64,000 bases of DNA from Romboutsia timonensis (GCF_900106845.1 NZ_LT629850.1:772257-836256); one strand, 5' to 3'. Positions 34,068 to 60,553 are shown, numbered from the stretch's first letter. Notes: generated by a model not told the origin, from the sequence alone. Translations and numbers: made by a program.

Positions 34068-34081
34068 ATAAGGGGGATACA

Positions 34082-37348: not shown

Positions 37349-37369
37349 TAATAGAGGGGATAGTACTTG

Positions 37370-41359: not shown

Positions 41360-41382
41360 TATTATAAGGGGAATATTTTATA

Positions 41383-42759: not shown

Positions 42760-42760
42760 A

Positions 42761-43735
42761 ATGGGGTACAAAGATATAAATTTTCCAAAAGGAACTAAGT
42801 TTTTAGTAACAGGTGGAGCTGGGTTTATCGGCTCTAACCTTGTTGAAGTTTTATTAGAAAAAGGGTGCTTTGTAAGAGTATTAGATAATTTATCTATAGG
42901 AAAAAAAGAAAATATAGAAGAATTTATGAATCATGAAAATTTTGAGTTTATTGAAGGAGATATAAGAAATATAGAAACTTGCCAAGAGGTATGCAAAGAT
43001 ATGGAATATGTACTTCATCAAGCAGCTTGGGGATCTGTTCCTAGGTCAATAGAGATGCCTTTACTATATGAAGAAATAAATATAAAAGGAACATTAAATA
43101 TGTTAGAAGCTGCTAGGCAAAATAAAGTTAAAAAGTTTGTATATGCATCAAGTTCTTCTGTATATGGAGATGAACCTAATTTACCTAAAATAGAGGGAAG
43201 AGAAGGGAATATACTTTCACCATATGCTCTTACTAAAAAAGTAAATGAAGAATATGCAAAATTATACACTAAATTATATGGTTTAGATACTTATGGACTA
43301 AGATATTTCAATGTATTTGGAAGACGTCAAAATCCAGATGGAGCATATGCAGCTGTTATACCTAAATTTATAAATCAACTTCTAAATAATGAAGTTCCTA
43401 CAATAAATGGAGATGGAAAACAGTCAAGAGATTTTACATATATAGAAAATGTAATAGAAGCGAATTTAAAGGCTTGTTTATCACCTCATGAATCGGCAGG
43501 GCAATCATATAATATTGCTTATGGAGGAAGAGAGTATTTAATAGATATTTATTACGCGCTTACTAAGTCATTAGAAAAAGATATTGAACCTAATTTTGGA
43601 CCAGATAGAGCTGGTGATATCAAACATTCAAATGCTGATATTAGTAAAGCTAAATCACTGTTAGGTTATAGTCCAGAGTATAGTTTTGAAGATGGAATTA
43701 AATTATTTATAGAGTGGTATAAGGAGAATTTATAA
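42761..43735 (+). CDS. UDP-N-acetylhexosamine 4-epimerase (TviC/WbpP type)
   Basis: A 324-residue extended SDR enzyme. Start at ATG 42761, eight bases after TTGGAGG; an in-frame ATG at 42734 inside the previous gene has no ribosome site. NAD motif is TGGAGFIGSN, the active-site Ser lies in ASSSSVYGD, and Tyr/Lys in SPYALTKK. GGREYLIDIYYALT and FGPDRAGDIKHSNAD are typical of the WbpP/TviC branch that interconverts UDP-GlcNAc/GalNAc or their uronic acids. It starts two bases after the dehydrogenase stop. Confidence 0.9.
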   Translation: MGYKDINFPKGTKFLVTGGAGFIGSNLVEVLLEKGCFVRVLDNLSIGKKENIEEFMNHENFEFIEGDIRNIETCQEVCKDMEYVLHQAAWGSVPRSIEMPLLYEEINIKGTLNMLEAARQNKVKKFVYASSSSVYGDEPNLPKIEGREGNILSPYALTKKVNEEYAKLYTKLYGLDTYGLRYFNVFGRRQNPDGAYAAVIPKFINQLLNNEVPTINGDGKQSRDFTYIENVIEANLKACLSPHESAGQSYNIAYGGREYLIDIYYALTKSLEKDIEPNFGPDRAGDIKHSNADISKAKSLLGYSPEYSFEDGIKLFIEWYKENL

Positions 43736-43736
43736 T

Positions 43737-44315
43737 ATGACTCATATTCGAGGGAGAGATAAATTTAATAAGATAAAACCAATAATTAGTGTACTAATAA
43801 ATATAAGTAGATTAATTCCTAAAAAAGCACGTAAAAAATTATTTGAGTTATTTAGAAATAAAAAAGGAAATATAGGGCTACTTATTAGATATATATTACT
43901 TACAACAATTACAAAACAATGTGGAGAAAATGTATCAATACATCCAGGAGTATATCTATTTGGATTAGATAAATTATCTATAGGTAATAATGTATCAATA
44001 CATCCGATGAGTTATATTGATGCAAGTGGAGGAATAGAAATAGGAAATGATGTATCTATTGCACATGGAGTTAGTATTTTATCTACTTCACATAGATATG
44101 ATGAAATAAATATACCTATAAAAGATCAAGGAATTGATTCTAAAAAGACAATTATAGAGGATAATGTATGGGTTGGTGCAAAAGCTTCAATATTATATGG
44201 AAATATAGTAAAAAAAGGTAGTATTATTGCTGCTAATACTGTAGTTACAAAAAATATTGACTGTAATGTTATTGTTGGAGGAGTACCAGCTCGTACAATA
44301 ATTGAAAGGAAATAG
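43737..44315 (+). CDS. left-handed beta-helix O-acyltransferase (WbbJ-like)
   Basis: A 192-residue hexapeptide-repeat protein. Residues 60-180 show repeated I-G-N-x-V turns (KLSIGNNVSIHPMSYIDA, IEIGNDVSIAHGVSIL), the catalytic His in STSHRYDE and the closing GGVPARTI. Such trimeric enzymes transfer acetyl from acetyl-CoA to sugars or lipid-linked intermediates. In this operon it probably acetylates a sugar of the repeat unit. The initiating-sugar N-acetyltransferase role of PglD is less likely, since PglD has an N-terminal Rossmann-like domain not seen here. Confidence 0.82.
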   Translation: MTHIRGRDKFNKIKPIISVLINISRLIPKKARKKLFELFRNKKGNIGLLIRYILLTTITKQCGENVSIHPGVYLFGLDKLSIGNNVSIHPMSYIDASGGIEIGNDVSIAHGVSILSTSHRYDEINIPIKDQGIDSKKTIIEDNVWVGAKASILYGNIVKKGSIIAANTVVTKNIDCNVIVGGVPARTIIERK

Positions 44316-44317
44316 AA

Positions 44318-45598
44318 ATGAGAGTATTAGTAATTACACGTAGTAGTTGGAGTAATGATAATAACATAGGAAATACAATGACTAATTTATTTTCAGGATT
44401 TAAAGATACTGAATTTACAAATATATATTTTAGAGAACAAATTTCTAATAATGATATTGCTAGCAAAACTTTTCATATAACAGAACAACAGATAGTATCA
44501 GCCTTTATTAAAGGGACTGAAGTTGGAAAGCAAGTGAAAGAATATAAAGAAGAAAAAAATATAGATGAATCTTTAGAAAGTAAAATATATAGAAATACAG
44601 CTATTAAAAGTAATAACTTTATGTTGATGATAAGAGAATTAATGTGGACATTAGGAAATTGGAAAAATTCTAGACTAGATGAATTTTTAGATGAATATAA
44701 GCCAGATATTATATTTATGCCAGTATTTGGATGTTATTACCCACATAAAGTTTTATCTTATATAAAAAATAAGACAAAAGCAAAGGTTGTATTATTCCAT
44801 GCAGATGATAATTATACGCTGAAACAATTTTCTCTTTCACCATTATATTGGATGTATAGAATAGGATTAAGAAGATGGGTAAAAAAATCTGTTCAGATTT
44901 CAGATATTAATTATTGTATTTCTGAGCTACAAAGAATTGAGTATGAAAAATGTTTTAAAACTAAATGTAAAATTTTATATAAAGGAGGAGATTTTGAAGC
45001 AGACCCTTATATAAAAAATAATACTCAAGAAGTGATAAAATTAGTTTTTACAGGTAATATTAGCTCGGGAAGATGGAAAACTTTAGCGAATATAGGAGAA
45101 GCTTTAAATAAAATTAATAGAGAAAAAATAAAAGCACAATTAGTAATTTATTCTCATACTCCTATGACAAAAAGAATGAAAAAGGCACTGGATATTGGAA
45201 ATAGTATTATATTAATGGGAGGAGTACCTGCAAGTGAAATACAAGATATTCAACAAAATGCAGATATTTTAGTTCATGTAGAATCATTTGATTTAAAAGA
45301 AAGATTACAAGTAAGGCTTTCTTTCTCAACAAAGATTGTAGATTATTTTTCATCAGGGAAATGTATTTTTGCTGTTGGAAATAAAGATGTTGAATCTATT
45401 AATTATTTAATTAAAAATGATAGCGCAATTGTTGCAACAAATAAATCAGAAATATTTTATCAGTTAAAAAAAATAATAGATAATCCTATACTAATAAATG
45501 AATACTCCAAAAAATCATGGGAATGTGGAGTAAGGAATCATCAGATAAATAAAATACAAAAAGAATTATATGAAGATTTAAGAATATTATGTGAGTAG
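44318..45598 (+). CDS. glycosyltransferase, GT-B type
   Basis: A 426-residue protein with a GT-B fold. The N-terminal part has VLVITRSSWSNDNNIGNT and DIIFMPVFGCYYPHKVLSYI. The C-terminal part has LVFTGNISSGRWKTL and ADILVHVESFDLKERLQVRLSFSTKI (given in outline), where the acceptor/donor loop contains two acidic residues. It ends with a helical segment as usual. Family 4-like but divergent, consistent with a serotype-specific linkage. The gene begins two bases after the acyltransferase stop. Confidence 0.75.
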   Translation: MRVLVITRSSWSNDNNIGNTMTNLFSGFKDTEFTNIYFREQISNNDIASKTFHITEQQIVSAFIKGTEVGKQVKEYKEEKNIDESLESKIYRNTAIKSNNFMLMIRELMWTLGNWKNSRLDEFLDEYKPDIIFMPVFGCYYPHKVLSYIKNKTKAKVVLFHADDNYTLKQFSLSPLYWMYRIGLRRWVKKSVQISDINYCISELQRIEYEKCFKTKCKILYKGGDFEADPYIKNNTQEVIKLVFTGNISSGRWKTLANIGEALNKINREKIKAQLVIYSHTPMTKRMKKALDIGNSIILMGGVPASEIQDIQQNADILVHVESFDLKERLQVRLSFSTKIVDYFSSGKCIFAVGNKDVESINYLIKNDSAIVATNKSEIFYQLKKIIDNPILINEYSKKSWECGVRNHQINKIQKELYEDLRILCE

Positions 45599-45606
45599 GT
45601 GGAAGT

Positions 45607-46818
45607 TTGAAAGTTTTGCAAATTAATGCAGTAAATATTATTAGAAGTACTGGTAGAACTACAAAAGAAATACATGATTACTTAAAAAAATACGGTCATG
45701 AGAGTATTGTTGCTTACTCTGAAGGACCAGATTGTGAAAATACTTATAAAATAGGATCAACTATTGAAAAAAAGATACATGGATTACTTTCTAGGCTTTT
45801 AGGGTTACAAGGTTATTTTTCTAAAATAGGAACCAAAAACTTAATTAATTATATTGTTCAAGAAAAGCCTGATGTTGTAAGATTAGGTAATCTACACAGC
45901 GATTATATAAATATTCCTATGGTATTGAAGTTTTTAGCTAAGGATGATATACCCACTGTACTTACATTAGATGATTGCTTCTTTTTTACTGGAAAGTGTT
46001 GTCATTATACAGCTGATAATTGCTATAAGTGGAAAATAGGATGTAAGAATTGTATAAGAGTCCATAAGGATAATAATAGTTGGTTTCTAGACAGAACTAA
46101 AAAAATGTGGAAAGATAAAAAAAATCTATATGACAATATTCCAAGATTAGCTGTTGTAGGGGTTTCAGAATGGATAACAAGAGAAGCTAAAGAATCTATA
46201 TTATCTTCAGCTAAATATATAAAAACAATATATAATTGGATTGATACTGATTTATTTAAACCTATTAATACAATAGAATTAAGAAAAAAATTATTTTTAC
46301 AAAATAAATTTATAATACTAGGTGTAGCGAGTGGTTGGAGTAATAGTAAAGGATTAAATTATTTTATTGAGCTTTCTAAGTGTATAGATGATAATCATAG
46401 CATAATTTTAGTAGGAAATATTCCAAAATCTATAGAGTTACCTAATAATATTATACATATACAAGAAACTAATAATGTACAAGAATTAGTACAATATTAT
46501 TCTATGGCAGATGTATTTTTACAGCTTTCTCTTGAAGAAACTTTTGGAAAAGTAACAGCAGAAGCTTTATCATGTGGAACACCTGTAATTGTATTTGACT
46601 CAACTGCTAATCCAGAACTTGTAGGTTATAAGTGTGGCTATGTAGCAAATAAAAGTTCTTTAAAAGATGTAGTCAAATACATAGAGTGTATAAAGTTTAA
46701 TACAAAAGAATATTATTCTAATTCGTGTAGAGAATTTGCTTTAAATAACTTTAATAAAGAAGATAGAATATCAGATTATATTAATTTATTTGAAAATCTT
46801 ATAAATGTAAGGGAGTAG
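45607..46818 (+). CDS. glycosyltransferase family 4 (WcaC/EpsF-like)
   Basis: A 403-residue protein with TTG start after GTGGAAG. A Cys-rich insert, FFFTGKCCHYTADNCYKW then IGCKNC, lies at about residues 125-150. This insert is characteristic of one GT4 subgroup in polysaccharide loci, and with the two His/Asp residues it may bind zinc. C-terminal motifs are LGVASGWSNSKGLNYF and EETFGKVTAEALSCGTPVIVFD, the classic E-x7-E donor site. Part of the variable central portion of the operon. Confidence 0.85.
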   Translation: MKVLQINAVNIIRSTGRTTKEIHDYLKKYGHESIVAYSEGPDCENTYKIGSTIEKKIHGLLSRLLGLQGYFSKIGTKNLINYIVQEKPDVVRLGNLHSDYINIPMVLKFLAKDDIPTVLTLDDCFFFTGKCCHYTADNCYKWKIGCKNCIRVHKDNNSWFLDRTKKMWKDKKNLYDNIPRLAVVGVSEWITREAKESILSSAKYIKTIYNWIDTDLFKPINTIELRKKLFLQNKFIILGVASGWSNSKGLNYFIELSKCIDDNHSIILVGNIPKSIELPNNIIHIQETNNVQELVQYYSMADVFLQLSLEETFGKVTAEALSCGTPVIVFDSTANPELVGYKCGYVANKSSLKDVVKYIECIKFNTKEYYSNSCREFALNNFNKEDRISDYINLFENLINVRE

Positions 46819-46819
46819 T

Positions 46820-47890
46820 ATGAGTACTTATTTAATTAATATTATTCTTATATTATCGTGGGCTGTAGTTTTACTTAATAATAACACAAGTAAAAGAAAT
46901 AAAAAAATATTCTGTATAATAGTAATAATTCAATGGATTTTAATATCTGGTCTAAGGCATATTAGTGTAGGTGCAGATACGTATGCATATATGGTTAATA
47001 GATTTAATAAAACAATAAATAGTTCATGGCAAGAATTATTTACAAATTTTCATAATATTGTGTTTTTGGGAGGAGAAGGTAAAGATCCAGGTTACCCAAT
47101 ATTAGAAAAAATATTTCAAATATTTTCTGATAACTATCAATTATTTTTAATATTTATTGCAATGGTATTTAAAATTCCTATGGGAAAGTTTATATATAAG
47201 TATTCAAAATTACCATGTGTTAGTTTTATAATTTACTCTTGTCTTTTTTATAGCTTTTTTTCTATAACAGGCCATAGACAGACAATAGCAGCTGGTATCG
47301 CTCTTTTTTTAGGATATGAACTTATTAAGGAACGAAAATTTTGGAAATTTATATTATTAATTGTTTTTGCTTCAACGATTCATAAATCGATTATTTGTTT
47401 AATACCATTTTACTTTATAGCAAATAAAAAAATAACATGGAGATATTCTTTATCTATGTTATCTAGTTTTATATTAATATTTATATTTAAAAATAAAGTT
47501 ATGAAGTCATTAGCTTTCTTTGCTGGATATGAGAATTATAGTGAACAATTTCAAGGTGCAGGAACATGGACATTTACATTTATTTTTATTATGGTTATTC
47601 TAGTTGCATTATGGCAAGCACCTAAGATTTTAAAGGAAAATAATAAAGATATTACAATATGGTATAATGCAATATTTATGGCATTATTATTTATACCACT
47701 TACATATGTAGACCCTAGTGCAATGAGAATTGTACAATATTTTTCTATTTTTATTATGGTATTGATTCCAGAAATTATTAAGAGTTTTAATATAAAAACG
47801 CAACCAATTGTATATTATACAGGAATATCTCTAATAGTACTATTATTTATAAAAGGTAATCCACAATACTTATTTTTCTGGCAGGGGTGA
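46820..47890 (+). CDS. EpsG-like polysaccharide polymerase (Wzy role)
   Basis: A 356-residue membrane protein with about 10 hydrophobic segments. It shows the EpsG family signature LRHISVGADTYAYMVNRF near residue 45-65 and ITGHRQTIAAGIALFLGYELI near 150. EpsG-like proteins act as the Wzy polymerase that joins lipid-linked repeat units outside the cell. It is the only polymerase candidate in the operon, and a Wzx flippase lies 3 kb downstream, so the pathway is Wzx/Wzy-dependent. Confidence 0.85.
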   Translation: MSTYLINIILILSWAVVLLNNNTSKRNKKIFCIIVIIQWILISGLRHISVGADTYAYMVNRFNKTINSSWQELFTNFHNIVFLGGEGKDPGYPILEKIFQIFSDNYQLFLIFIAMVFKIPMGKFIYKYSKLPCVSFIIYSCLFYSFFSITGHRQTIAAGIALFLGYELIKERKFWKFILLIVFASTIHKSIICLIPFYFIANKKITWRYSLSMLSSFILIFIFKNKVMKSLAFFAGYENYSEQFQGAGTWTFTFIFIMVILVALWQAPKILKENNKDITIWYNAIFMALLFIPLTYVDPSAMRIVQYFSIFIMVLIPEIIKSFNIKTQPIVYYTGISLIVLLFIKGNPQYLFFWQG

Positions 47891-47896
47891 GTTTAA

Positions 47897-49039
47897 ATGA
47901 ATAAAGAAATTAAATATATAGGATTTTATGACTTAGTAGACAGTAAAATTCAAAGAAGTAGCTGTTTAGCAGCAGTAAATAAGATGAATTACATAGCTAA
48001 TGCTATAACACGTTCTGGAATGAAAGTACAGATAGTTTCACCAGCTTGGTTTGTCGATAAAAGCGCACCTAATACACAAAAGCAAACTATACATATTAAT
48101 GAAGATATTACATTGGTTTTAGCTCCAAGCTTTTCTACTAAAAATAAATTAACAAATAAGCTTAAATATTATTTTTCACAACTATGGATGTTTTTTTGGT
48201 TAATAAATAATGTTCAAAAAGATGAAGAAATAATAGCTTATCATTCATTAGCACTAATAAGACCATTGTATTGGGCTAAAAAAATAAAAAAATTTAATCT
48301 AATATATGAAGTTGAAGAAATATACACAGATGTAATTAATTATGGGAAGTTAAAAAGGAGATCTGAATTTAAGATGATTAATTATGCAGATAAATATATT
48401 TTTTCTACAGAATTATTAAATGAAAAAATAAATAAAGATGGTAAACCATATACCATAATTTATGGAACTTATAAAGCAGAAAAGGATAGAAATGTAAAAT
48501 TTAATGATGATAAAATTCATGTTGTTTATGCAGGAACTTTTGATCCAAGAAAAGGTGGATCAACAGCAGCAGCAGCAGGGGAATATCTAGATGAAAAGTA
48601 TCATATACATATAATTGGTTTTGGTAGTGAAGATGAAAAAACAGCTTTACAAAATTTAATTAAAGAAGTTTCTAAAAAGACAAAGTGTACAGTTACATAT
48701 GACGGATTGTATAACGGTGAGGAATATATAAAATTTTTACAAAAGTGTGATATTGGTTTAAGTACTCAAACACCTAATGCAGAGTATAATGATACATCAT
48801 TTCCATCAAAAGTGCTTTCATATATGGCAAATGGGCTTAGGGTTGTATCAATAAGAATAAAAGCTATAGAAAAAGCAAAGATTAGTAAATTACTATATTA
48901 CTATGATAAAGATTGTCCAAATGAAATTGCAAAGGCTATAAAAAGCATTGATTATAATGGTGATTATGATAGTAGAGTTATAATAAAAGCACTAGATACA
49001 GAATTTACACAAGACTTAAAACATCTGTTGGAGGTTTAG
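47897..49039 (+). CDS. glycosyltransferase, GT-B type
   Basis: A 380-residue protein. IQRSSCLAAVNKMNYIANAI at the N-terminus resembles proteins that read a sugar acceptor at the membrane. The C-terminal half has VVYAGTFDPRKGGSTAAAAG, then CDIGLSTQTPNAEYNDTSFPSKVL, in which the PSK segment is typical of GT4-like donor sites. No membrane helices. It forms one of the four or five linkages of the repeat unit. Start is 7 bases after the polymerase stop, within GGGGTGAG. Confidence 0.75.
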   Translation: MNKEIKYIGFYDLVDSKIQRSSCLAAVNKMNYIANAITRSGMKVQIVSPAWFVDKSAPNTQKQTIHINEDITLVLAPSFSTKNKLTNKLKYYFSQLWMFFWLINNVQKDEEIIAYHSLALIRPLYWAKKIKKFNLIYEVEEIYTDVINYGKLKRRSEFKMINYADKYIFSTELLNEKINKDGKPYTIIYGTYKAEKDRNVKFNDDKIHVVYAGTFDPRKGGSTAAAAGEYLDEKYHIHIIGFGSEDEKTALQNLIKEVSKKTKCTVTYDGLYNGEEYIKFLQKCDIGLSTQTPNAEYNDTSFPSKVLSYMANGLRVVSIRIKAIEKAKISKLLYYYDKDCPNEIAKAIKSIDYNGDYDSRVIIKALDTEFTQDLKHLLEV

Positions 49040-49040
49040 T

Positions 49041-49580
49041 ATGTATTATGTAATAGATAGAATAAAAGAAAAATTTTTAAGGTTTTATAGAAAAAAGGTG
49101 TTTTTATCTAGAATAAAAAGTAATCAAAAAGATACTAAAATTATAGGGTCAGGAATTCTTGTAAATGCATCTAATGTTAAAATTGGAAAGAATGTAACAA
49201 TTTATCCAAATGTAATGTTTTGGGGAGATGGTGAAATTATTATTGGAGACAATGTTGATATTGGTAAAGATACAATTATTTTTTCTAAGAAAAGAGTGAT
49301 TATAGGCAATAATGTTTCTATTGCAGCGCAGTGTTATATTATAGATAGTAATCATGGAACTAAGAAAGATATACTTATCAAAAATCAACCACTTGAGTAT
49401 GATGAAAATGGTATTGTAATAGGTAATGATGTGTGGATAGCAGCAGGATGTAAAATAATAAAAGGAGCTCAAATCAATGATGGAGCTGTTATAGGTGCTA
49501 TGAGTTTAGTTAATAGTGAAATTAAAAATAATAGTATTGCAGTTGGAATACCTGCTAAAGTAATAAAGGAGAGAGAGTAA
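49041..49580 (+). CDS. left-handed beta-helix acyltransferase
   Basis: A 179-residue hexapeptide-repeat protein, a second acyltransferase of the operon. Repeats include VKIGKNVTIYPNVMFWGDG, IIIGDNVDIGKDTIIFS and VIIGNNVSIAAQCYIIDSNH with the catalytic His. NDVWIAAGCKIIKGAQINDG and VGIPAKVIKERE close the helix. It would O- or N-acetylate a sugar. The two acyltransferases are only distantly alike, so each probably has its own target. Confidence 0.82.
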   Translation: MYYVIDRIKEKFLRFYRKKVFLSRIKSNQKDTKIIGSGILVNASNVKIGKNVTIYPNVMFWGDGEIIIGDNVDIGKDTIIFSKKRVIIGNNVSIAAQCYIIDSNHGTKKDILIKNQPLEYDENGIVIGNDVWIAAGCKIIKGAQINDGAVIGAMSLVNSEIKNNSIAVGIPAKVIKERE

Positions 49581-50582
49581 ATGAGTAAACATCAATACAA
49601 AATAGATATACCAGTACTTTTAATATTTTTTTCTAGAGATGAACAATTTAAACAAGTTTTTGAACAAGTAAAAAAAGCTCGTCCAAGTAAATTATATCTT
49701 TATCAAGATGGACCCAGAGATAATAGACCAGATGATATAATCGGAATAAATAAATGCAGAAAAATAGCAGAAGATATAGATTGGGAATGTGAAGTTCATA
49801 AATACTATCAAAATAAAAATTTTGGTTGTGACCCATCTGGGTACATTGCTCATAAGTGGATGTTTGAAAATGAAGAAATGGGTATTGTTTTAGAAGATGA
49901 TGTTGTTCCTTCTCAATCATTTTTTCCATTTTGTAAAGAACTTTTAGAGAAATATAAAGATGATGAACGAATAAATATAATTTGTGGCATGAATAATACT
50001 GGGGTATCAAAACATATCTCTGCTGACTACTTATTTACTAAAAAAGGATCTATTTGGGGATGGGCATCATGGAAACGTGTAATAGATACATGGGATGAAA
50101 CATATTCATGGTTAGATAATGAAAAATCAGTACAACTAATAAGAAATCAATTTTATAGTGAAGAAGAGTTTAAATGTTATATTAAAACAAGTAAATCTCA
50201 TAGAAATTCTGGAAGAGCTCATTTTGAATCAATATTAGCTGCATCGTTATATTTAAATTCAAGGATAAATATTGTTCCAAAATATAATATGATTTCCAAT
50301 ATAGGTATAGCGTCTGAGAGTACTCATTCTGTTGATAATATTAATAAACTACCTAAAAGAGTTCAAAAGTTGTTCTTTATGAAAACTTATAAATTTGATT
50401 TTCCTTTAAAACATCCTGTAAATATTATAAGGGATTATAAGTTTGAAAAATTAATGACTCCTACAAAAATTCAAAGATATTATGATAGAGTAGAAGGTAT
50501 TATACGTAAAATTAGATATGGAGGATTTAAAGAAATTTATAACAGTTTTAATAGGAAAATTATGAGGTATAGAAAATGTTGA
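49581..50582 (+). CDS. GT-A type glycosyltransferase (HlpA-like)
   Basis: A 333-residue protein with a GT-A style nucleotide-sugar fold. VLLIFFSRDEQFKQVFEQV begins the domain. IVLEDDVVPSQSFFPF contains the D-x-D-like metal motif (EDDV), and KKGSIWGWASWKRVIDTWDE holds the Trp-rich acceptor region of the hemolysin-associated (HlpA-like) glycosyltransferases. No helices. It overlaps the flippase gene by seven bases. It is the fifth glycosyltransferase of the operon. Confidence 0.7.
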   Translation: MSKHQYKIDIPVLLIFFSRDEQFKQVFEQVKKARPSKLYLYQDGPRDNRPDDIIGINKCRKIAEDIDWECEVHKYYQNKNFGCDPSGYIAHKWMFENEEMGIVLEDDVVPSQSFFPFCKELLEKYKDDERINIICGMNNTGVSKHISADYLFTKKGSIWGWASWKRVIDTWDETYSWLDNEKSVQLIRNQFYSEEEFKCYIKTSKSHRNSGRAHFESILAASLYLNSRINIVPKYNMISNIGIASESTHSVDNINKLPKRVQKLFFMKTYKFDFPLKHPVNIIRDYKFEKLMTPTKIQRYYDRVEGIIRKIRYGGFKEIYNSFNRKIMRYRKC

Positions 50583-52144
50583 AAATGAAAAAATACAGTA
50601 AAACCAAACCAAATTCAGAAAGTGTAAGCGAGATTAAGTTAGGTGTTATAATTTCTTATCTTACTATAATATTTAACATTTTATCGGGTTTAATATATAC
50701 ACCTTGGATGGTTAGACAAATTGGACACTCTGATTATGGATTATATACTTTATCGGCATCGTTTATAAGTATGTTTGCTGTAGATTTTGGACTTGGATCA
50801 GCTGTGTCTAGATTTATTTCTAAATATAGAGCTCAGGGTGAACAAAAGAAAATTAGTGAATTTTTAGGTATAACTTATAAAATTTATTTGGTAATAGCTA
50901 TTAGTATTTTTACTGTTCTATGCATAATGTTCTTCTATATAGATAATATTTATATTCAATTAACACCAAGTGAAATAGAAAAATTTAAAGTGATTTATTG
51001 CATTTCAGGATTGTTTACAGTTATTTCATTTCCATTTATGACACTAAATGGGATTATTATATCTCATGAAAAATTTATTTTTCAAAAAAGTTTAGATTTA
51101 CTGCATAAAATATTAATTATAGTGCTGATGGCAATTTCATTACTTTACGGATATGGATTGTATTCTTTAGTGTTAGTAAATGCTTTTGTTGGGATTTTAT
51201 TAATTATAATAAAATTGATGTATATAAAAAAATATATACCGCAAAAAGTAGATTTTGGATGTAAAAATAAAAAAATAGTGAAACAGATATTTTCCTTTTC
51301 TATTTGGACTACAATAATTTTAATTATGCAACGATTTATTTTAAATATTACACCATCTATCTTAGCGATTACTTCAGGAACCGAAGAAATTGCTATATTT
51401 TCTGTAGCTATGACAATTGAAGGTTATACTTTTACATTTTCAACAGCACTATCAGGGTTATTTTTACCAAAGGTAACTCAAATGGTTTATAAAGATAATA
51501 CAGAAAGTTTAAATGATATTGAAGATTTAATGATTAAAGTTGGAAGAATACAATTAATAATCATTGGAGCGATAGTTACTATCTTTATTACTCAAGGCAA
51601 CGAATTTATAACATTGTGGATGGGAAAATCATTTAAAGATTCATATATAGTTTCTATATTGCTTATTTTAAATTCTGTAATTATAGTAACTCAAGAAATT
51701 GCAAACACGATGTTAATTGCAGTTAATAAAATAAAGTATGAAGCATTAAGTGTTAGTATAACTGCTATAATAAGTATTTTACTATCATTTACTTTATCTA
51801 AGTATGGGGGTGCAATAGGATCAGCTACAGCAATTTTTATTGGTAATTTCGTTGGAAGGGTTGTCGTTAGGAATATTGTATATAAGAAAGTATTAGGTCT
51901 TAATATAAAAAGATTTTTTAAAGAATGTCATTTAAAAATGTCTATACCATTAATACTAACATTAGTCATAGGATTTGTACTTTCACAATTTATAGTAGCA
52001 AATAATTTATTTATATTTGCGTGTAAAGTTGTTATATTAGGATTATTCTATATTTTATTAATGTGGTTGTTTTCATTTAATGAATCAGAGAAAAAATCAT
52101 TATTACAGCCTTGCAATTTAATAATTAATAAATTACAAAAATAA
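50576..52144 (+). CDS. Wzx-type flippase (polysaccharide exporter, MOP superfamily)
   Basis: A 522-residue membrane protein with about 14 helices. The opening LGVIISYLTIIFNILSGLIY, then YTPWMVRQIGHSDYGLYTLS and DFGLGSAVSRFISKYR, is the standard N-terminal pattern of polysaccharide-specific MOP exporters. It moves the undecaprenyl-linked repeat unit across the membrane for the EpsG-like polymerase. The start overlaps the preceding stop, and GAGGT sits 8 bases upstream. Its length is normal for Wzx. Confidence 0.9.
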   Translation: MLKMKKYSKTKPNSESVSEIKLGVIISYLTIIFNILSGLIYTPWMVRQIGHSDYGLYTLSASFISMFAVDFGLGSAVSRFISKYRAQGEQKKISEFLGITYKIYLVIAISIFTVLCIMFFYIDNIYIQLTPSEIEKFKVIYCISGLFTVISFPFMTLNGIIISHEKFIFQKSLDLLHKILIIVLMAISLLYGYGLYSLVLVNAFVGILLIIIKLMYIKKYIPQKVDFGCKNKKIVKQIFSFSIWTTIILIMQRFILNITPSILAITSGTEEIAIFSVAMTIEGYTFTFSTALSGLFLPKVTQMVYKDNTESLNDIEDLMIKVGRIQLIIIGAIVTIFITQGNEFITLWMGKSFKDSYIVSILLILNSVIIVTQEIANTMLIAVNKIKYEALSVSITAIISILLSFTLSKYGGAIGSATAIFIGNFVGRVVVRNIVYKKVLGLNIKRFFKECHLKMSIPLILTLVIGFVLSQFIVANNLFIFACKVVILGLFYILLMWLFSFNESEKKSLLQPCNLIINKLQK

Positions 52145-52159
52145 AGGGGGAGCAAGTTA

Positions 52160-53215
52160 ATGTTTAAAGATAAAGTACTTTTAATAACAGGTGGAACAGG
52201 ATCGTTTGGTAATGCTGTACTAGATAGATTTTTAAATACCGATATAAAAGAAATAAGAATATTTAGTAGAGACGAAAAAAAGCAAGAAGATATGAGAAGA
52301 ACTTACAGAAACGATAAACTTAAGTTCTATATAGGAGATGTAAGAGACTATAATAGTATAAACTATGCACTAAAAGGAGTAGACTATGTATTCCATGCAG
52401 CAGCACTAAAACAAGTTCCATCATGTGAATTTTATCCAATACAAGCAGTACAAACAAATGTACTTGGTACAGAAAATGTATTAAATGCTTGTATAAACAA
52501 TAAAGTAAAAAAAGTAGTGTGTTTAAGTACAGACAAAGCAGCATACCCTATAAATGCTATGGGTATATCAAAAGCAATGATGGAAAAGGTTGCTATAGCA
52601 AAATCAAGACAAGTAAATCCTGACGATACATTAATAAGTATAACAAGATACGGAAATGTAATGGCATCAAGAGGTTCTGTTATACCACTATTTGTTGAGC
52701 AAATGAAAAGAGGAGAAGATATAACAGTAACAGATCCAAACATGACAAGATTTATGATGAGTTTACCAGATGCAGTTGAATTAGTTTTATATGCTTTTGA
52801 AAATGCAAGACAAGGAGATTTATTTATACAAAAAGCACCAGCTGCAACTATAGAAACTTTAGCACAAGCAGTAAGAGAAATATTTGACTGTAAAGATACT
52901 GGAGTTAAAACTATAGGTACTAGACATGGTGAAAAATTATATGAAACGTTAGCTACAAGAGAAGAGTTAGCTAAATCAGAAGATTGTGGTGATTATTATA
53001 GAATATGTGCAGATAATAGGGACTTAAATTATGATAATTACTTTAGTGATGGAAAAGAAAAAACATCTACATTAGAGGATTATCATTCGCATAATACAAT
53101 ACGATTAAATGTAGAGGAAATGAAAGAATTATTATTAAAATTAGACTATATAAAAGAAGAATTAGCAATCTTTGAAGAAGAAAGACAGTTAAAAGAAATA
53201 GCAGCATCTAAATAA
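52160..53215 (+). CDS. capE: UDP-GlcNAc 4,6-dehydratase/5-epimerase (CapE/FnlA)
   Basis: A 351-residue soluble SDR enzyme. NAD motif TGGTGSFGNAV (10-20), DVRDYNSINYALKGVDYVFH, the catalytic region STDKAAYPINAMGISKAMMEK and RYGNVMASRGSVIPLF match CapE/WbjB/FnlA, which starts UDP-N-acetyl-L-fucosamine synthesis by inverting dehydration of UDP-GlcNAc. The next two genes complete this pathway. It differs from the membrane dehydratase at 34843, which is of the retaining type, so the operon contains both routes from UDP-GlcNAc. GGGGGAG precedes the ATG. Confidence 0.92.
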   Translation: MFKDKVLLITGGTGSFGNAVLDRFLNTDIKEIRIFSRDEKKQEDMRRTYRNDKLKFYIGDVRDYNSINYALKGVDYVFHAAALKQVPSCEFYPIQAVQTNVLGTENVLNACINNKVKKVVCLSTDKAAYPINAMGISKAMMEKVAIAKSRQVNPDDTLISITRYGNVMASRGSVIPLFVEQMKRGEDITVTDPNMTRFMMSLPDAVELVLYAFENARQGDLFIQKAPAATIETLAQAVREIFDCKDTGVKTIGTRHGEKLYETLATREELAKSEDCGDYYRICADNRDLNYDNYFSDGKEKTSTLEDYHSHNTIRLNVEEMKELLLKLDYIKEELAIFEEERQLKEIAASK

Positions 53216-53244
53216 TACTTAAATTTTAATAGTGGGGATAAAAT

Positions 53245-54426
53245 ATGAAAAAAATACTAGTAACAGGGGCAAATGGATTTGTAGGTAAAAATGCTGTAGT
53301 AGCCTTAAGACATAGTGATGAATACGAAGTAATTACAATAGATAAGGAAAATAGCGAAGAGGAATTAAAAGAAGGTATACTAAGAGCAGATTTTATAGTT
53401 CACTTAGCAGGAGTCAATAGACCAAAGGAAAATAAAGAATTTTATGAAGGCAATGGACAATTAACAGAAAAAATAACTAATTACTTAAAAGAGCATAAGA
53501 AAAATACTCCAATCCTAATAACATCATCAACTCATGCAACTCTCAATAATGATTATGGAAAAAGTAAAAAACAATCAGAAGAAGCACTAATAAAATATAG
53601 TGATGAATGCAATTCAAAAGTTTACATATTCAGATTACCAAATGTGTTTGGAAAATGGTGCAGACCTAATTATAATTCAGCAGTAACAACATTTTGTTAC
53701 AACATAGCACATGATAAAGAAGTATGGGTAAACGACCCATCTATAGAATTAAATTTAGTATACATAGATGATGTAGTAGCAGCAATAATTGATTGTATAA
53801 AAGAAGAAAATATAATAAACCTTAAAAATATAGAGGAAGAACTTGCAATAACTACAACAAAAGCAACTAGTATACAAATTGATAAATATTTTTATGAAAT
53901 ACCTAAAGTATATAAAAGAAGTTTAGGTAATATAGTTGATACGTTAAAAATGTTTAGAAATATGAGAAATAGCTTATTAATACCAGATTTAAGTGATAGC
54001 TTTAATAAAGCATTGTATTCAACATACTTGACATATTTAGAAGAAGATGATTTCTCATATTACTTAGATAAAAAAGAAGATAGCAGGGGATGGCTAGCTG
54101 AACTTGTTAAATCACCACAGTTTGGTCAAATGTTTGTGTCAAAAACACATCCAGGAATAACTAGAGGAAATCATTGGCATCATACTAAAACTGAAAAGTT
54201 TATTGTTGTCCAAGGAAAAGCAAATATAAGATTTAGAAAAATAGATGAAGATAAAGTTATTGAGTATATAGTAGATGGTGAAAAACCACAAGTACTTGAT
54301 ATACCCCCAGGATATACTCATTCTATAGAAAATATAGGGGAAGAAGAAGTTATAACACTTTTCTGGTCAAATGAAATGTTTAATCCAGAAAAGCCTGATA
54401 CTTATTTTTTAGAGGTGGAGAGATAA
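53245..54426 (+). CDS. capF: bifunctional UDP-4-keto-6-deoxy sugar epimerase/reductase (CapF/FnlB)
   Basis: A 393-residue protein with two domains. Residues 1-270 are an SDR fold (ILVTGANGFVGKNA, then STHATLNNDYGKSKKQSEEA with Tyr/Lys). Residues 290-390 are a cupin, GNHWHHTKTEKFIVVQGKA, with metal-binding His residues. CapF does the C3-epimerisation in the cupin and the NADPH-dependent C4-reduction in the SDR part, second step of UDP-L-FucNAc synthesis. Its TAA stop shares one base with the next gene's ATG. Confidence 0.92.
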   Translation: MKKILVTGANGFVGKNAVVALRHSDEYEVITIDKENSEEELKEGILRADFIVHLAGVNRPKENKEFYEGNGQLTEKITNYLKEHKKNTPILITSSTHATLNNDYGKSKKQSEEALIKYSDECNSKVYIFRLPNVFGKWCRPNYNSAVTTFCYNIAHDKEVWVNDPSIELNLVYIDDVVAAIIDCIKEENIINLKNIEEELAITTTKATSIQIDKYFYEIPKVYKRSLGNIVDTLKMFRNMRNSLLIPDLSDSFNKALYSTYLTYLEEDDFSYYLDKKEDSRGWLAELVKSPQFGQMFVSKTHPGITRGNHWHHTKTEKFIVVQGKANIRFRKIDEDKVIEYIVDGEKPQVLDIPPGYTHSIENIGEEEVITLFWSNEMFNPEKPDTYFLEVER

Positions 54427-55550
54427 TGAAGAAGTTAAAGCTAATGACTATAGTTGGTACTAGACCAGAGATAATAAGACTTTCTGAAACTATAAAAAAA
54501 TGTGATAAATACTTTGACCATGTGTTAGTACATACAGGACAAAATTGGGATTATACATTAAATCAAGTATTCTTTGAAGATTTAGAATTAAGAGAGCCAG
54601 ACTATTACTTAGATACAGTTGGAAAAGATTTAGGTGAAACTATGGGAAATATAATTGCTAAATCTTATGAAGTAATACAAAAAGAACAACCAGATGCATT
54701 ATTAGTATTAGGAGATACAAACTCTGCAATGTCTGCAATATCTGCTAAAAGGCTTAAGTGTCCAATATTCCATATGGAAGCAGGAAATAGATGTTGGGAC
54801 TGGAATGTATCTGAAATGATAAATAGAAAGATAGTTGACCATATAGCAGATATAAATTTACCATATACAGAACATTCAAGAAGATATTTAATATCTGAAG
54901 GAATAGATGGAAAAACAATATTTGTTACAGGATCTCCAATGCAAGAAGTATTACAAGCACATATGGATAAGATTAAGCAAAGTGATGTATTAGAGAGGTT
55001 AAACCTTGAAAAAGGAAAATATATATTAGTTTCTGCTCATAGAGAAGAAAACATAGATAATGAAGAAAACTTTATTAGTTTAATGAACTCTATAAATAAT
55101 ATAGCTGAAAAATACCAAATGCCAGTTATATATTCTACTCATCCAAGAAGTAAGAAGTTTATAGAGCAAAGAGAGTTTAAGTTTCATCCATTAGTTCAAA
55201 GTATGAAACCATTTGGGTTTATGGATTATAATCAACTTCAAATGAATAGTTATTGTGTTTTATCTGACAGTGGTACTTTATCAGAGGAAAGTGCAATGCT
55301 TAATTTCCCAGGGGTACTTATAAGGACTTCTACGGAAAGACCAGAGGTGCTTGATAAGGGTACTGTTGTTATTGGTGGGATAAAAGGTAATGATGTTGAG
55401 CAGGCTATGGAGCTTGCTGTAAATATGTATAAAAATAATGAAGAAGTAATACTTGCAGATGATTATTTAGATACAAATGTATCAGTTAAGGTTGTAAAAT
55501 TAATACAAAGTTATTCTAAAATTGTTAATATAACAACTTGGAACAAGTAG
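54426..55550 (+). CDS. capG: UDP-N-acetylglucosamine-type 2-epimerase (CapG/FnlC)
   Basis: A 374-residue GT-B-like 2-epimerase. Motifs VGTRPEIIRLSETI, HTGQNWDYTLNQVFFEDL, HMEAGNRCWDWNV, VSAHREENID and SDSGTLSEES are diagnostic for the FnlC/CapG branch, which turns UDP-N-acetyl-L-pneumosamine into UDP-N-acetyl-L-fucosamine. It is the last gene of the polysaccharide operon. No terminator is visible between it and the downstream membrane gene, so read-through is possible. Confidence 0.93.
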   Translation: MKKLKLMTIVGTRPEIIRLSETIKKCDKYFDHVLVHTGQNWDYTLNQVFFEDLELREPDYYLDTVGKDLGETMGNIIAKSYEVIQKEQPDALLVLGDTNSAMSAISAKRLKCPIFHMEAGNRCWDWNVSEMINRKIVDHIADINLPYTEHSRRYLISEGIDGKTIFVTGSPMQEVLQAHMDKIKQSDVLERLNLEKGKYILVSAHREENIDNEENFISLMNSINNIAEKYQMPVIYSTHPRSKKFIEQREFKFHPLVQSMKPFGFMDYNQLQMNSYCVLSDSGTLSEESAMLNFPGVLIRTSTERPEVLDKGTVVIGGIKGNDVEQAMELAVNMYKNNEEVILADDYLDTNVSVKVVKLIQSYSKIVNITTWNK

Positions 55551-56285: not shown

Positions 56286-57497
56286 ATGAATAAAACTCAG
56301 GATTATTTAGTAAAATTATTAGATAGTGCTATTCATGGAAATAAAATAAACTTCAATATAGATGAAAATATACAGTGGGATAAACTTTTAGATGAAGCTA
56401 GAGCTCATAAAGTTGAATCTTTAGTTTATTCAGCAATAGATAGAAAATCATTAGAACATATAGATAATAAAAAATTATTAGATTTATGGAAAAGAGAGAC
56501 TTTTTTATCAGGTGTAAATCAATTAAATCATATAAATAATGTTTCAGAATTTTTAGCTGAATTCAATAAAGAAAATATACAAGTAATTGTACTTAAGGGT
56601 ATAGTAATAAGAAACTTATATCCAAAACCGGAATTAAGAACTATGTGCGATGCAGATATATTAGTCAAGAATAAAGATGACTTGAATAGAGTAAAAAATG
56701 TACTTTTAAATCTAGGATATAAAGAAAGTGTATCATCAGATAAAGATTTATGTTTTAGAAGAGGTATTACATATGTAGAGGTTCATTGGAGTATTGCAAA
56801 TGAGAAAAACTTTTTAAATATAGAAAAATTTGAAGAGGAAATTTGGAAAAATTCTGTAACTGTTAAGGTTGGAAATGCAAGTGCATTGTCAATGTGTGAC
56901 GAAGATTTAATACTACATTTATGTATGCATATGGCAGCACACATAAAGTATAGTGGATTTGGTATTAGACAACTTTGTGATTTTGTTTTAATTGTAGAAG
57001 AAAAAGGAGATTTAATAGATTGGAGTATATTTAAACGTAAGTTGGAAAGACATGGAATATACAAGTTTATTATTAGTATATTTGAAATTTGTAATAAACT
57101 ATTTGGGCTAAAAATTCCTTATGAACTAAAATCAGAAAATCTTATGAATAATAAATTTATAGATTTATTGATAGATGAGATATTTTTAAGTGGAGTTCAT
57201 GGAAAAAGAAATAAAATTTTACAAATTTCAAATGCTATTTCACATGCTAATATAGAAGAAAAAAGAAATTGTATTCATTTTTTTAAAAAATTATATTTTC
57301 CATCTATTAATACTCTGTCAGATAAGTATATGTATGCAAAACGATACAAAATTTTACTACCAATAGCATGGATTCATAGATTGTTTATTGGGGGATTAAA
57401 TTATAAGGAGAGTATAAGTGATAAATTAAAAATTGCTATATTTGGAGCTAGTATTTCGAGAAGAAGGAATAAATTGATAAGTTGGTTAGAATTATAA
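56286..57497 (+). CDS. nucleotidyltransferase of the PF14907 family (lasso-cluster N protein-like)
   Basis: A 403-residue protein starting at ATG 56286 (MNKTQDYL); AAAGG lies upstream, and an earlier in-frame ATG at 56220 lacks a site. The N-terminal helical part is followed by the nucleotidyltransferase core VIVLKGIVIRNLYPKPELRTMCDADILV. Key residues are Lys104, Gly105, Arg118 and the D-x-D pair Asp122/Asp124. The family occurs in paeninodin-type lasso peptide clusters beside an HPr-kinase homologue (here at 59615), and also in some polysaccharide loci. In the former context it acts on the phosphorylated C-terminus of the peptide. Which applies here is inference from the neighbouring peptide gene. 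Confidence 0.78.
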   Translation: MNKTQDYLVKLLDSAIHGNKINFNIDENIQWDKLLDEARAHKVESLVYSAIDRKSLEHIDNKKLLDLWKRETFLSGVNQLNHINNVSEFLAEFNKENIQVIVLKGIVIRNLYPKPELRTMCDADILVKNKDDLNRVKNVLLNLGYKESVSSDKDLCFRRGITYVEVHWSIANEKNFLNIEKFEEEIWKNSVTVKVGNASALSMCDEDLILHLCMHMAAHIKYSGFGIRQLCDFVLIVEEKGDLIDWSIFKRKLERHGIYKFIISIFEICNKLFGLKIPYELKSENLMNNKFIDLLIDEIFLSGVHGKRNKILQISNAISHANIEEKRNCIHFFKKLYFPSINTLSDKYMYAKRYKILLPIAWIHRLFIGGLNYKESISDKLKIAIFGASISRRRNKLISWLEL

Positions 57498-57500
57498 ATA

Positions 57501-57544
57501 AAGGGCATATAAGCTTAATTTAAAGCTTTAATATGCCCTTTATT
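57501..57544. terminator. bidirectional terminator between the nucleotidyltransferase and VanZ-like genes
   Basis: AAAGGGCATATAAGCTT / AAGCTTTAATATGCCCTTT stem, with an A/T loop, between convergent genes. Confidence 0.85.
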
Positions 57545-58030
57545 TATAATCTTAGCAATTAAAATACCTATATATCCACCTAAAGTGTTTAGCCATAAAT
57601 CATCTATCTCACAAAATCTATAAGGAATAAATCCTTGTATAAACTCAATAGACAATGTTAATAAAAATATTATTAATATAGATTTTCTAACATTTGAATT
57701 TTTTAAGAATATAAAAAATCCAAATGGAATAAATAATACTATATTACCAAACACTTGATGAATAAAATAAGAAAAATCATAGTTAAGATATATATTAATA
57801 GGAACTCTGAAAGGAATTAAATTGTATACTTCAAATCCATCAAAATTAGCATCTAATTCAATAGGAAAAAGTGTCTGAGAAATTATAAAAATAAATGACA
57901 AAAATAAAGATAGATCTATAAATCTATCTTTGTAGTTAAATTTATTATTCATAAAATAGTCATAAATTATAACCATACCTAAGTAAAAAAATGTTACACC
58001 CAAGAATATAGATTCAGAAAATTCTATCAT
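57515..58030 (-). CDS. VanZ-like family membrane protein
   Basis: A 171-residue membrane protein. ATG 58030 is chosen over the adjacent TTG; GAGGTG lies 9 bases upstream. It has four or five helices and the VanZ-family pattern: a first Leu-rich helix, ETLFPIELD-like loop (TLFPIELD), VYNLIPFRVPI, and QVFGNIVLFIPFGFFIFL then IEFIQGFIPYRFCEIDDLWLNTLGG. VanZ-like proteins affect teicoplanin susceptibility or other envelope features; the mechanism is unknown. It runs against the neighbouring genes, so it may be a passenger rather than part of the RiPP-like locus. Confidence 0.85.
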   Translation of the reverse strand: MIEFSESIFLGVTFFYLGMVIIYDYFMNNKFNYKDRFIDLSLFLSFIFIISQTLFPIELDANFDGFEVYNLIPFRVPINIYLNYDFSYFIHQVFGNIVLFIPFGFFIFLKNSNVRKSILIIFLLTLSIEFIQGFIPYRFCEIDDLWLNTLGGYIGILIAKIINKGHIKALN

Positions 58031-58564
58031 CAAAATAACACCTCATAATTTTTATATAATATCATATTAAAATACACTTTCAAAAAAGTATAATATAAAT
58101 AATCTATTGCGCTAGTTAAAATTATATTCAAAATAAAGTAAATTGTTTTATATAAAAAATAATATACGGCAAAGATTAGTATTTACAAATTTTACTAAAT
58201 TACAATCTTTTAATTTTAGCTACATAATTATCGATTACAATCAAGTTATTTATTAGAAATGAAATATTATGAGATAAAACCTTTATTGAAGTTCTATTTA
58301 TAAATACTATGTAGTATATATTAATAATTTCAAATGATGATAATGATAATATATTAAATGAGTGTTAGAAAAGCTATAAAATAGATTTTGGTGGAAGTTA
58401 TATTTAAAGTAGCATCTTTAGAGTTATTATATATTATCCATAAGTATAATGGATAGGTGATTATATTATTGATATTATTATGTTACTAATATATTAAGTC
58501 AATATAAAGTAGTATGTAAATAATGATTTTACAAATTATATATTAAATATTAGGAGGGAGAACT
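58031..58564. other. gene-free interval before the peptide gene
   Basis: About 530 AT-rich bases. Only very short open frames are present, such as 14 codons near 58259 and 8 near 58361, without convincing ribosome sites. It must contain the promoter of the Cys-rich peptide gene and that of the VanZ-like gene. No recognised RNA structure was found. Confidence 0.45.
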
Positions 58565-58789
58565 ATGAAAAAAGTATGGAATAAACCTAATATAAGTAAT
58601 TTATCATTAGAAGATACAATGGCTAAAGGCGAAATAATGTCTAATTTTACTAGAGGTGATAAAAGATGGTTTGCATGGAGATGTTGTTGTGGAGTTACAA
58701 GTGACTTTATTTATCCAACTGCAACTGATGCAGATATAGCACTAAGTCAACATGAATCAACTTGCCAACATCCTTGCCTTATATCATAA
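58565..58789 (+). CDS. candidate RiPP precursor peptide with lasso/paeninodin-like leader and Cys-rich core
   Basis: A 74-residue peptide behind the very strong ribosome site AGGAGGGAG. The leader MKKVWNKPNISNLSLEDTMA has Trp5-x-x-Pro8 in place of the YxxP recognised by lasso RRE proteins, Ile10, Leu13 and a Thr18-Met19 pair where lasso leaders keep Thr at position -2. The rest is not a lasso core: no Asp/Glu falls at core positions 7-9. It has Trp35, Trp38, Cys40-42 (CCC), Cys67 and Cys71, with His63 and His69 near the last two. It ends in Ser74, the kind of C-terminal Ser that paeninodin kinases phosphorylate. Cyclase, PqqD-like and transglutaminase-like genes are missing. Confidence 0.6.
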   Translation: MKKVWNKPNISNLSLEDTMAKGEIMSNFTRGDKRWFAWRCCCGVTSDFIYPTATDADIALSQHESTCQHPCLIS

Positions 58790-58915
58790 TAAAATAATGT
58801 ATTTTTTATAAGTATATTAAACTTTATTAATAAAAGATATGTTCAGCATATTCAATATGTGTATATATTAACTAGTACGCAGATTAAATAACATTTATAA
58901 TAAAGTAGGGAGAAA

Positions 58916-59482
58916 ATGAAAAAAAATAAAATATTAATTATTACTTATATATTAGCATTAAGCATAATATCAAGTGGATGTAACTTTATAAAGGTTAATG
59001 AAGGTATATTATATGGAAATGAAGATTCACCTATAGAAATAATTAACTATACAAGTTTTCAATGCAGTGCATGTACTACATTGCATGAAGAACTTGGAGA
59101 AAGTATAAAAAAATATATAGACTCTGGACAAATAAAATATATAGAAAAACAAATTGATATAAAACGATTTGAATATGATGATGTAATCTATAAACATATG
59201 AATGAAGAACAAATCTCAGATTTTGAAAAACTATCGGAAATATATGAAAAACAAGATAAATGGATAGTATTAAAGTCACCAGAAGAAGTAATAGAATTTC
59301 TAAATCTAGAACAAGAAGAAAATAAAAAACATGTAAAAGATCTAAAAAAGATAAATAAAGAAAAAGATAAATTAGAAATAAAAGCAGTACCTACTATGTT
59401 TATAAATGGTGAAAGAATAGAAGGAAATATACCAAAAGAAGAGTTTGAAAATAAAATAGAATCATTATTAAATAAAAAATAA
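58916..59482 (+). CDS. DsbA-like thioredoxin-fold lipoprotein
   Basis: A 188-residue lipoprotein with lipobox ISSGC (Cys22). The active site FQCSACT has Cys50 and Cys53, and the cis-Pro is Pro159 in AVPTMFING. A helical insertion of about 90 residues lies between, as in DsbA/thioredoxin_4 proteins. It would form or shuffle disulfides on the outer face of the membrane. It follows the Cys-rich peptide gene by 126 bases in the same direction, so the peptide may be its substrate. The CSAC pair is unusual compared with CPHC of classical DsbA. RBS GTAGGGAG. Confidence 0.78.
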   Translation: MKKNKILIITYILALSIISSGCNFIKVNEGILYGNEDSPIEIINYTSFQCSACTTLHEELGESIKKYIDSGQIKYIEKQIDIKRFEYDDVIYKHMNEEQISDFEKLSEIYEKQDKWIVLKSPEEVIEFLNLEQEENKKHVKDLKKINKEKDKLEIKAVPTMFINGERIEGNIPKEEFENKIESLLNKK

Positions 59483-59511
59483 TCTAGTTATATAGCTAGA
59501 TTATTTTTTAT
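59478..59511 (+). terminator. terminator after the DsbA-like gene
   Basis: AATAATCTAG / CTAGATTATT stem with a T run. Confidence 0.8.
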
Positions 59512-59614
59512 TTAATAAGTATACTTTAGTGTAATTAAAATTAAATATAAAGATAATATAGTATATTATCCAAAAACAGTATAATGAAAAATATAATTAT
59601 TATTGGAGGATAGA

Positions 59615-60553
59615 ATGAGCTATTTTTATAGAGTATATGGATTAAATGTTAAATCAGAAATATTGATACCAGAACTAACTATTTTAGAAGAGGATAAAAG
59701 AGATAAAATAGATGTAAATATATGCTACAAAATGATGGATGCAGATATAAGATTAATGATGCTTCAAGGTAAAAAAGCAAACTATGAAAATAAAAAAATG
59801 TGGTTTCATATAGATAATTTAGCGACTTATTGTATAACTAATGGTAATAAAATAGATATACAATTATGTGAAAATCCTGATCACCAGTTAGTAAAAGTAT
59901 ATATACTAGGTAGCGTACTAGGGATGGTGCTTTTACAAAAAAATATAGTAGCAATTCATGGTGGAGGAGTAGTAATAAATGATAAGGGGTATGTATTTAC
60001 AGGAGATAAAGGAGCTGGTAAATCAACACTTACTACAGCACTAAGACAATGTGGATACGGTTTTATAGCAGATGATGTTTGTTCTATAAAACAAGGAGAA
60101 ATAAATAAAATATATCCAGGTTTTGGATATCAAAAATTATGTGATGATACAATGATTAAATTAGGATATACACCGAATGATTATGAGCCTTTTAGAAGTG
60201 ATTTTAATATAAAGTACATAGTACCTGCGTTAGATGATTTTGTAAATTATGAAGTACCTTTTGAAGGTATATTTGAACTTACTGTTTCAGATGTTGAAAG
60301 TGTAGAGATTAAAGAAATTACTGGTATTGAAAAAATACAAAGCTTAATTAAGAATATTTTTAGAATTGAGATGTTACACTACTCTGGAGGGATAAATTCT
60401 CTATATTTTAAAAAGTGTGCAGACATAGCGAAGAGTATAAAATATTATAAATTAACTAGACCTAAAGATGTATTTTCTGTAAATGAGCAAATCGAAGTTA
60501 TTGAAAATATAATTTATAAAGATGAAATAGATAAGTTAGAAAAGTTGGGATAA
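59615..60553 (+). CDS. HPr-kinase-like serine kinase (lasso-cluster K protein-like)
   Basis: A 312-residue protein starting at MSYFYRVYGL; TTGGAGG precedes this ATG and an in-frame TTG inside it at 59603 is rejected. The C-terminal HPrK/P fold has a Walker A loop GDKGAGKST (130-138), a preceding AIHGGGVV strand (113-120) and IADDV (151-155) as in HPr kinases. There is no N-terminal HPrK regulatory domain; instead 100 residues of other sequence precede it. Homologues in paeninodin-type clusters phosphorylate the C-terminal Ser of the precursor peptide. Here the peptide at 58565 ends in Ser and is a fitting target. Confidence 0.72.
   Translation: MSYFYRVYGLNVKSEILIPELTILEEDKRDKIDVNICYKMMDADIRLMMLQGKKANYENKKMWFHIDNLATYCITNGNKIDIQLCENPDHQLVKVYILGSVLGMVLLQKNIVAIHGGGVVINDKGYVFTGDKGAGKSTLTTALRQCGYGFIADDVCSIKQGEINKIYPGFGYQKLCDDTMIKLGYTPNDYEPFRSDFNIKYIVPALDDFVNYEVPFEGIFELTVSDVESVEIKEITGIEKIQSLIKNIFRIEMLHYSGGINSLYFKKCADIAKSIKYYKLTRPKDVFSVNEQIEVIENIIYKDEIDKLEKLG

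Follow-up and report, generated by a model that had tools for sequence, protein, structure and literature searches.

What is made by a locus that carries the leader and the tail-modifying enzymes of a phosphorylated lasso peptide but no enzyme to close the ring? The question is raised by positions 56,286 to 60,553 of a 64,000-nucleotide stretch of Romboutsia timonensis DNA (NZ_LT629850.1:772257-836256; the whole stretch is the window, its genome G000). A preliminary description of this DNA had placed a PF14907 nucleotidyltransferase, a 74-residue peptide, a thioredoxin-fold lipoprotein and an HprK-like kinase here, and calling of open reading frames (ORFs) together with profile scans found all four at those positions (Table 1). 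We consider it probable that they belong to a working paeninodin-type pathway for ribosomally synthesized and post-translationally modified peptides (RiPPs) that does without the macrolactam cyclase and yields linear, C-terminally phosphorylated peptides.

A paeninodin-type gene set and its missing cyclase

A search with a lasso cyclase from Clostridium detected no macrolactam cyclase in the window, as described before, or elsewhere in the R. timonensis genome: only asparagine-synthetase-level matches (1.5e-18) were returned, and the two full Asn_synthase genes are AsnB-like (N-terminal MCG). The same query gave E<1e-144 in cyclase-bearing Clostridium genomes and 1e-67 for a contig-end fragment in G109. 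The cyclase was likewise not found in Romboutsia lituseburensis (G057), G058, G070, Clostridium sp. K13 (G072), G104, G115 and G263, several of which are draft assemblies, and was clear, or present as a contig-end fragment, in all other kinase-bearing genomes searched. In G263, where the locus lies within a 5.8-Mb contig, PF14907, B1, peptide, kinase, B2 and exporter form one block without the cyclase.

The recognition protein B1, the peptidase B2 and the exporter had all been reported as missing, yet each is encoded. The genome has one Transglut_core3 protein, the lasso B2, directly adjacent to a PqqD-family RiPP recognition element (RRE), B1 (G000:C5:1830606-1831221); the pair is unlinked, ~1.0 Mb from the window locus. 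An unlinked, adjacent B1-B2 pair also occurs in R. lituseburensis and G058, and in G070 the two genes flank a group of capsule genes, one on each side. The probable exporter gene is in the window itself, and its G058 counterpart stands beside the kinase and precursor genes. In pairwise scores, B1 matches the paeninodin RRE PbaB1 (E 2e-14) better than LppB (0.009), which fits the tryptophan-containing (W-type) leader described below. By analogy, the unlinked B1 and B2 would serve the window peptide. A survey of the window's family (71 genomes) placed the kinase in four genomes and B2 in exactly the same four (chance ~1e-6, treating genomes as independent, with G057 and G058 sharing one genus), and B2 is kept in all eight cyclase-free kinase genomes (two families).

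The alignment of the kinase retains H115, K136, D153 and D154, a region to which HPr kinases of solved structure also align. The window kinase thus has the HprK-like fold and the His, Lys, Asp and Asp that define a paeninodin-type tailoring kinase, the residue types being essential in lasso-tailoring kinases (review PMC9266682), and by this analogy it probably phosphorylates the C-terminal serine of the precursor. Its relatives adjoin short ORFs with a WxxP leader in nearly all loci, at a distance of <=300 bp in most of the cyclase-free ones, and pairing of the kinase with PF14907 is repeated in G070, K13, G104, G115, G263 and Clostridium sp. D53t1. Recurrence in related genomes, which the preliminary description had proposed as a check, held for kinase and precursor, found without the cyclase in at least eight genomes of two families; the pairing with the DsbA-like gene recurred only in D53t1, and the B genes were kept. 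The suggestion of a lasso-derived pathway that retains its tail-modifying enzymes without a ring-former is borne out to that extent.

That unrelated genes merely came to lie next to a capsule locus is extremely unlikely. Capsule loci are gene-rich and variable, and the VanZ gene that stands divergently between the PF14907 and peptide genes has no consistent tie to the pathway, but the association is repeated in ~25 genomes and kinase and B2 are phyletically coupled. Chance neighbourhood is refuted for kinase and peptide, and less firmly for PF14907 in G000. That gene is single-copy in the genome and shares 41% identity with one in the G070 cluster. The locus was probably inherited in place, since a regulator at its flank has orthologues throughout G000, G057/G058 and G070 (59-78% identity).

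Two further loci extend the picture of the kinase. In Clostridium sp. K13 (L019/L089) a single 20-kb cyclase-free cluster contains ~7 kinase homologues, some partial or with stop codons, together with at least five precursors with differing cores, which resembles an expansion of kinase-precursor pairs. In a Bacteroidales metagenome-assembled genome (L027 3526-5314) a kinase relative has B1-, B2- and cyclase-like neighbours as well as a WxxP peptide with a terminal serine (...DFNPNAS), so that lasso peptides of the tail-serine type are not confined to Bacillota.

Leader, tail and core of the precursors

The ORF of the 74-residue peptide is preceded by an AGGAGG ribosome site, and the paeninodin-type leader previously noticed is indeed present (MKKVWNKPNISNLSLEDT). 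The rule M-x0-7-W-x2-[PA]-x9-T, applied to the cyclase-free loci and D53t1, yielded 31 plausible precursors, besides two false matches on the antisense strand; the leader pattern is WxxPxI..L....T. A C-terminal serine ends 29 of the 31, compared with 6.4% of background ORFs; of the remaining two, one ends in PSA and the other is a 38-residue, probably truncated ORF. Removal of the latter leaves a curated set of 30, 29 of which end in serine (binomial p ~6e-34, the peptides being related and not independent). This is the residue phosphorylated by related lasso kinases.

The ring residues did not share this conservation. In a register taken from the lasso set itself, Thr+3 and Thr+11 are presumed to be residues 1 and 9 of the ring; Gly, Ala, Ser or Thr at the first combined with Asp at the second is found in 15 of 18 short precursors from cyclase-bearing loci versus 1 of 30 others (Fisher 1e-8); the window peptide has Lys and Thr at these positions. 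Cores are also longer in the cyclase-free genomes (median 56 residues versus 28 in cyclase-bearing loci) and richer in cysteine (5.9% versus 2.4%). To judge from its sequence, the window product is not a lasso peptide, by the lack of the cyclase as well as of the acceptor residue, and because the genome is without a cyclase the peptide is predicted to be linear.

Existing models did not recover these peptides. The paeninodin precursor model NF033524 did not match the window peptide and scored its sister precursors below cut-off (best 16.9 versus 27 bits), and NCBIfam and Pfam scans of the precursors gave no family above cut-off. A direct search for relatives of the window peptide found none by pattern in the genome_contigs set and none in the 71 family genomes; the kinase was the better bait for finding related loci. 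One core type, approximately EYxDPNNxPxxHPxWxWCxxHxxWHPxxH, recurs across Romboutsia and Clostridium (L009 13508-13693, L010 5971-6189, L017 15696-15941, L019 15787-16041, L023 9725-9898), so at least one core is conserved rather than merely variable.

The window peptide aligns over its full length with a peptide of Clostridium sp. D53t1 (L017; 30% identity, pairwise E 2e-8, to which the leader contributes a large part), and the two have Cys and His core positions in common. Both are placed between genes for PF14907 and a DsbA-like lipoprotein, which in the window has a CSAC motif and an SSGC lipobox; the lipoproteins are 51-52% identical. Beside other precursors a close DsbA-like gene was found only in D53t1: none was seen in the cyclase-free clusters outside the window, and 207 Clostridiaceae gave weak matches only. 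A role of the DsbA-like gene as a general partner of the pathway was not supported, the pairing being found only in the window and D53t1, and disulfide maturation is plausible for the window peptide only. The same neighbourhood could be read as that of a bacteriocin-like, disulfide-bonded peptide matured by the DsbA-like protein alone, with kinase and PF14907 serving the capsule: the DsbA-like gene lies directly downstream of the peptide, the pairing is repeated with the homologous D53t1 peptide, capsule genes adjoin, and between PF14907 and the peptide stands the divergent VanZ gene. The WxxP precursors beside nearly all kinase relatives, the conserved C-terminal serine and the repeated kinase-PF14907 pairing make that reading very improbable.

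For the core, metal binding may be an alternative to disulfides. The pattern C-x1-4-C-x8-22-H-x2-6-[HC], which was picked post hoc, occurs in 9 of 30 cores versus 3.4 +/- 1.5 after shuffling, and none of 2000 shuffles reached nine. One K13 peptide contains C-x2-C-x12-H-x4-H and weakly matches zf-C2H2 at E 0.005, below cut-off; the best Foldseek matches of its low-confidence model are zinc fingers (top 2lvh, probability 0.92, E 0.79; Z 3.4). The model of the window peptide has strands (a hairpin) and a helix, with a predicted local distance difference test score of ~70-84 for residues 31-74. No literature was found on zinc-finger RiPPs or on Romboutsia lasso peptides. Either state of the core, metal-bound or disulfide-bonded, is speculative.

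Selection and comparison with known systems

A decayed lasso cluster, in which the cyclase was lost and the other genes are relics, had been offered as an alternative. The cyclase is absent, the genes are dispersed in G000, and some kinase copies of K13 and other Clostridium genomes contain stop codons. However, the ORFs are intact, and the ratios of non-synonymous to synonymous substitution rates (dN/dS) between G057 and G058 are 0.05 for B2, 0.12 for B1, 0.14 and 0.22 for the kinases, 0.10 for the exporter and, for the peptides, 0.17-0.47. Purifying selection thus acts on the kinase, B1, B2 and the exporter, which renders decay unlikely; in addition, B2 is retained throughout the cyclase-free genomes, the precursors are long and have neither Asp9 nor the lasso ring signature, and the cyclase-free cluster of G263 is compact. 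Decay is therefore a decidedly poor explanation.

Paeninodin-family phosphorylated lasso peptides (PadeK/ThcoK) resemble the present system in the W-type leader with Thr at W+13, the C-terminal serine, the HprK-like kinase with His/Lys/Asp/Asp, B1, B2 and the ABC exporter; the difference is that here the genome has no cyclase and the cores, of 34-80 residues, lack the Gly1/Asp9 ring signature. Pseudomycoidin (PsmK/PsmN) offers the likeness of a kinase combined with a nucleotidyltransferase-type enzyme, PsmN, which we take to belong with PF14907. Both enzymes act on the C-terminal serine of pseudomycoidin (PMC9266682), which differs in being a cyclase-made lasso peptide.

The linear polyphosphorylated peptides (LPPs) described in Bacilli have an RRE, an HprK-like kinase, a nucleoside triphosphate (NTP)-transferase, an exporter, a SipW-like peptidase and a tyrosine-containing (Y-type) leader; their phosphosite is core Ser3, and they often lie in capsule loci (Popov et al. 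2026, PMC13381572). The present pathway could be a member or close branch of this family, with its SipW-like peptidase encoded elsewhere in the genome, since it shares the RRE, kinase, NTP-transferase, MsbA-like exporter, presumably linear product without need of a cyclase, capsule context and variable cores behind a conserved leader (PMC13381572). We hold this to be unlikely. The leader is W-type (WxxPxI..L....T), in contrast to YxxPxVLxHQxIxFETxxS; B1 is closer in pairwise score to PbaB1 than to LppB; a lasso-type B2, coupled to the kinase, is present, and no gene for the SipW-like peptidase (LppS) was noticed among the ORFs of the loci inspected, though no profile or genome-wide search for it was made; and the conserved serine is C-terminal, in Cys/His-rich cores from Clostridia. 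LPP is the closest known system, and the present pathway shares its plan with lasso peptides and LPPs while departing from a defining feature of each.

Several points weigh against a working cyclase-free pathway as set out here. The dN/dS values come from a pair of genomes other than that of the window, and no PF14907 gene was noticed close to the kinase of either. With B1 and B2 ~1.0 Mb from the kinase in G000, their partnership with the locus is drawn from a small number of genomes in which they co-occur, and two of these belong to a single genus. As to a metal-bound or disulfide-bonded core, searches with the window peptide model by Foldseek and VIA-align gave no fold match.

Proposed pathway and its setting

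Each enzymatic step is assigned by analogy with relatives. In the cyclase-free pathway that we favour, B1, encoded in trans, would bind the leader (WxxPxI...T) of the 74-residue precursor and B2, likewise in trans, would cut it; the HprK-like kinase would phosphorylate Ser74, and the PF14907 enzyme would probably extend this phosphate with a sugar or a nucleotide, so that the phosphorylated peptides are perhaps also glycosylated. The peptide would remain linear, given a genome without cyclase, and be released by the MsbA-like exporter. Its Cys/His-rich core would fold, possibly through disulfides formed with help from the neighbouring DsbA-like lipoprotein; the zinc-finger-like sister cores suggest folding about a metal as another option.

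Table 1. Features of the window in and around the locus
Feature	Coordinates	Strand	Basis
MsbA-like ABC exporter, probable peptide exporter	31282..32988	-	ABC_membrane + ABC_tran; 65% identity to G058 exporter
Capsule/exopolysaccharide locus (context, outside core pathway)	33387..55550	+	ORF order and sequences
PF14907 nucleotidyltransferase, probable modifier of phosphorylated C-terminal Ser	56286..57497	+	PF14907 E 5e-61
VanZ-like gene	57515-58033	-	ORF call and profile scan
74-residue precursor: residues 1-18 form the W-type leader; core rich in Cys and His; Ser74 at the C-terminus	58565..58789	+	
DsbA-like thioredoxin-fold lipoprotein, possible oxidase of the peptide's cysteines	58916..59482	+	Thioredoxin_4 E 1e-23
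HprK-like kinase, probable C-terminal Ser kinase	59615..60553	+	conserved His/Lys/Asp/Asp

Between the exporter and the tailoring genes lie ORFs that we presume, from general knowledge, to be of capsule/exopolysaccharide families. Three of them (52160-55550) resemble CapE/CapF/CapG, for UDP-N-acetylfucosamine synthesis, by eye, and the adjoining capsule therefore probably contains N-acetylfucosamine. A surface role of the peptide together with the capsule, drawn from gene position only, is speculative. Rather doubtful is a distinct clostridial RiPP class in which lasso leaders and processing enzymes release zinc-finger-like, metal-binding mini-proteins whose phosphorylated, sugar-modified C-terminal serine is tied to this capsule.

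Directly downstream of the locus (61394-63759) are phage-like replication genes for a TIGR02220-type protein, a DnaB-like helicase and a Mor-like regulator, and Mor-like and replication-like genes occur near the kinase in G070 as well (L011 11839-12466). Carriage of the pathway on phages or plasmids was unsupported: no kinase homologues were found in phages or in IMG/VR contigs, and plasmids gave distant matches only (~31% identity or less). Elsewhere, genes downstream of B1-B2 in R. lituseburensis (L037 14881-16657) encode a PqqD-like protein, ABC transporter proteins and a DsbA-like protein (CIDC), possibly a second peptide system, and C. polyendosporum (L088 4994-7323) has a probable radical SAM protein, a 61-residue peptide containing Cys and a small protein alongside, by eye resembling a locus of sactipeptide type.

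These data suggest that selection maintains the recognition of lasso leaders and the phosphorylation of tails even where a ring-former is missing, in a system separate from that of the LPPs in Bacilli, and that leader and C-terminal serine, rather than the ring, are what stays constant. Cyclase-centred genome mining would overlook such clusters. With the conserved serine, the kinase, PF14907 and the capsule context, it becomes testable what phosphorylated lasso peptides and LPPs do, in culturable strains such as Romboutsia lituseburensis DSM 797.

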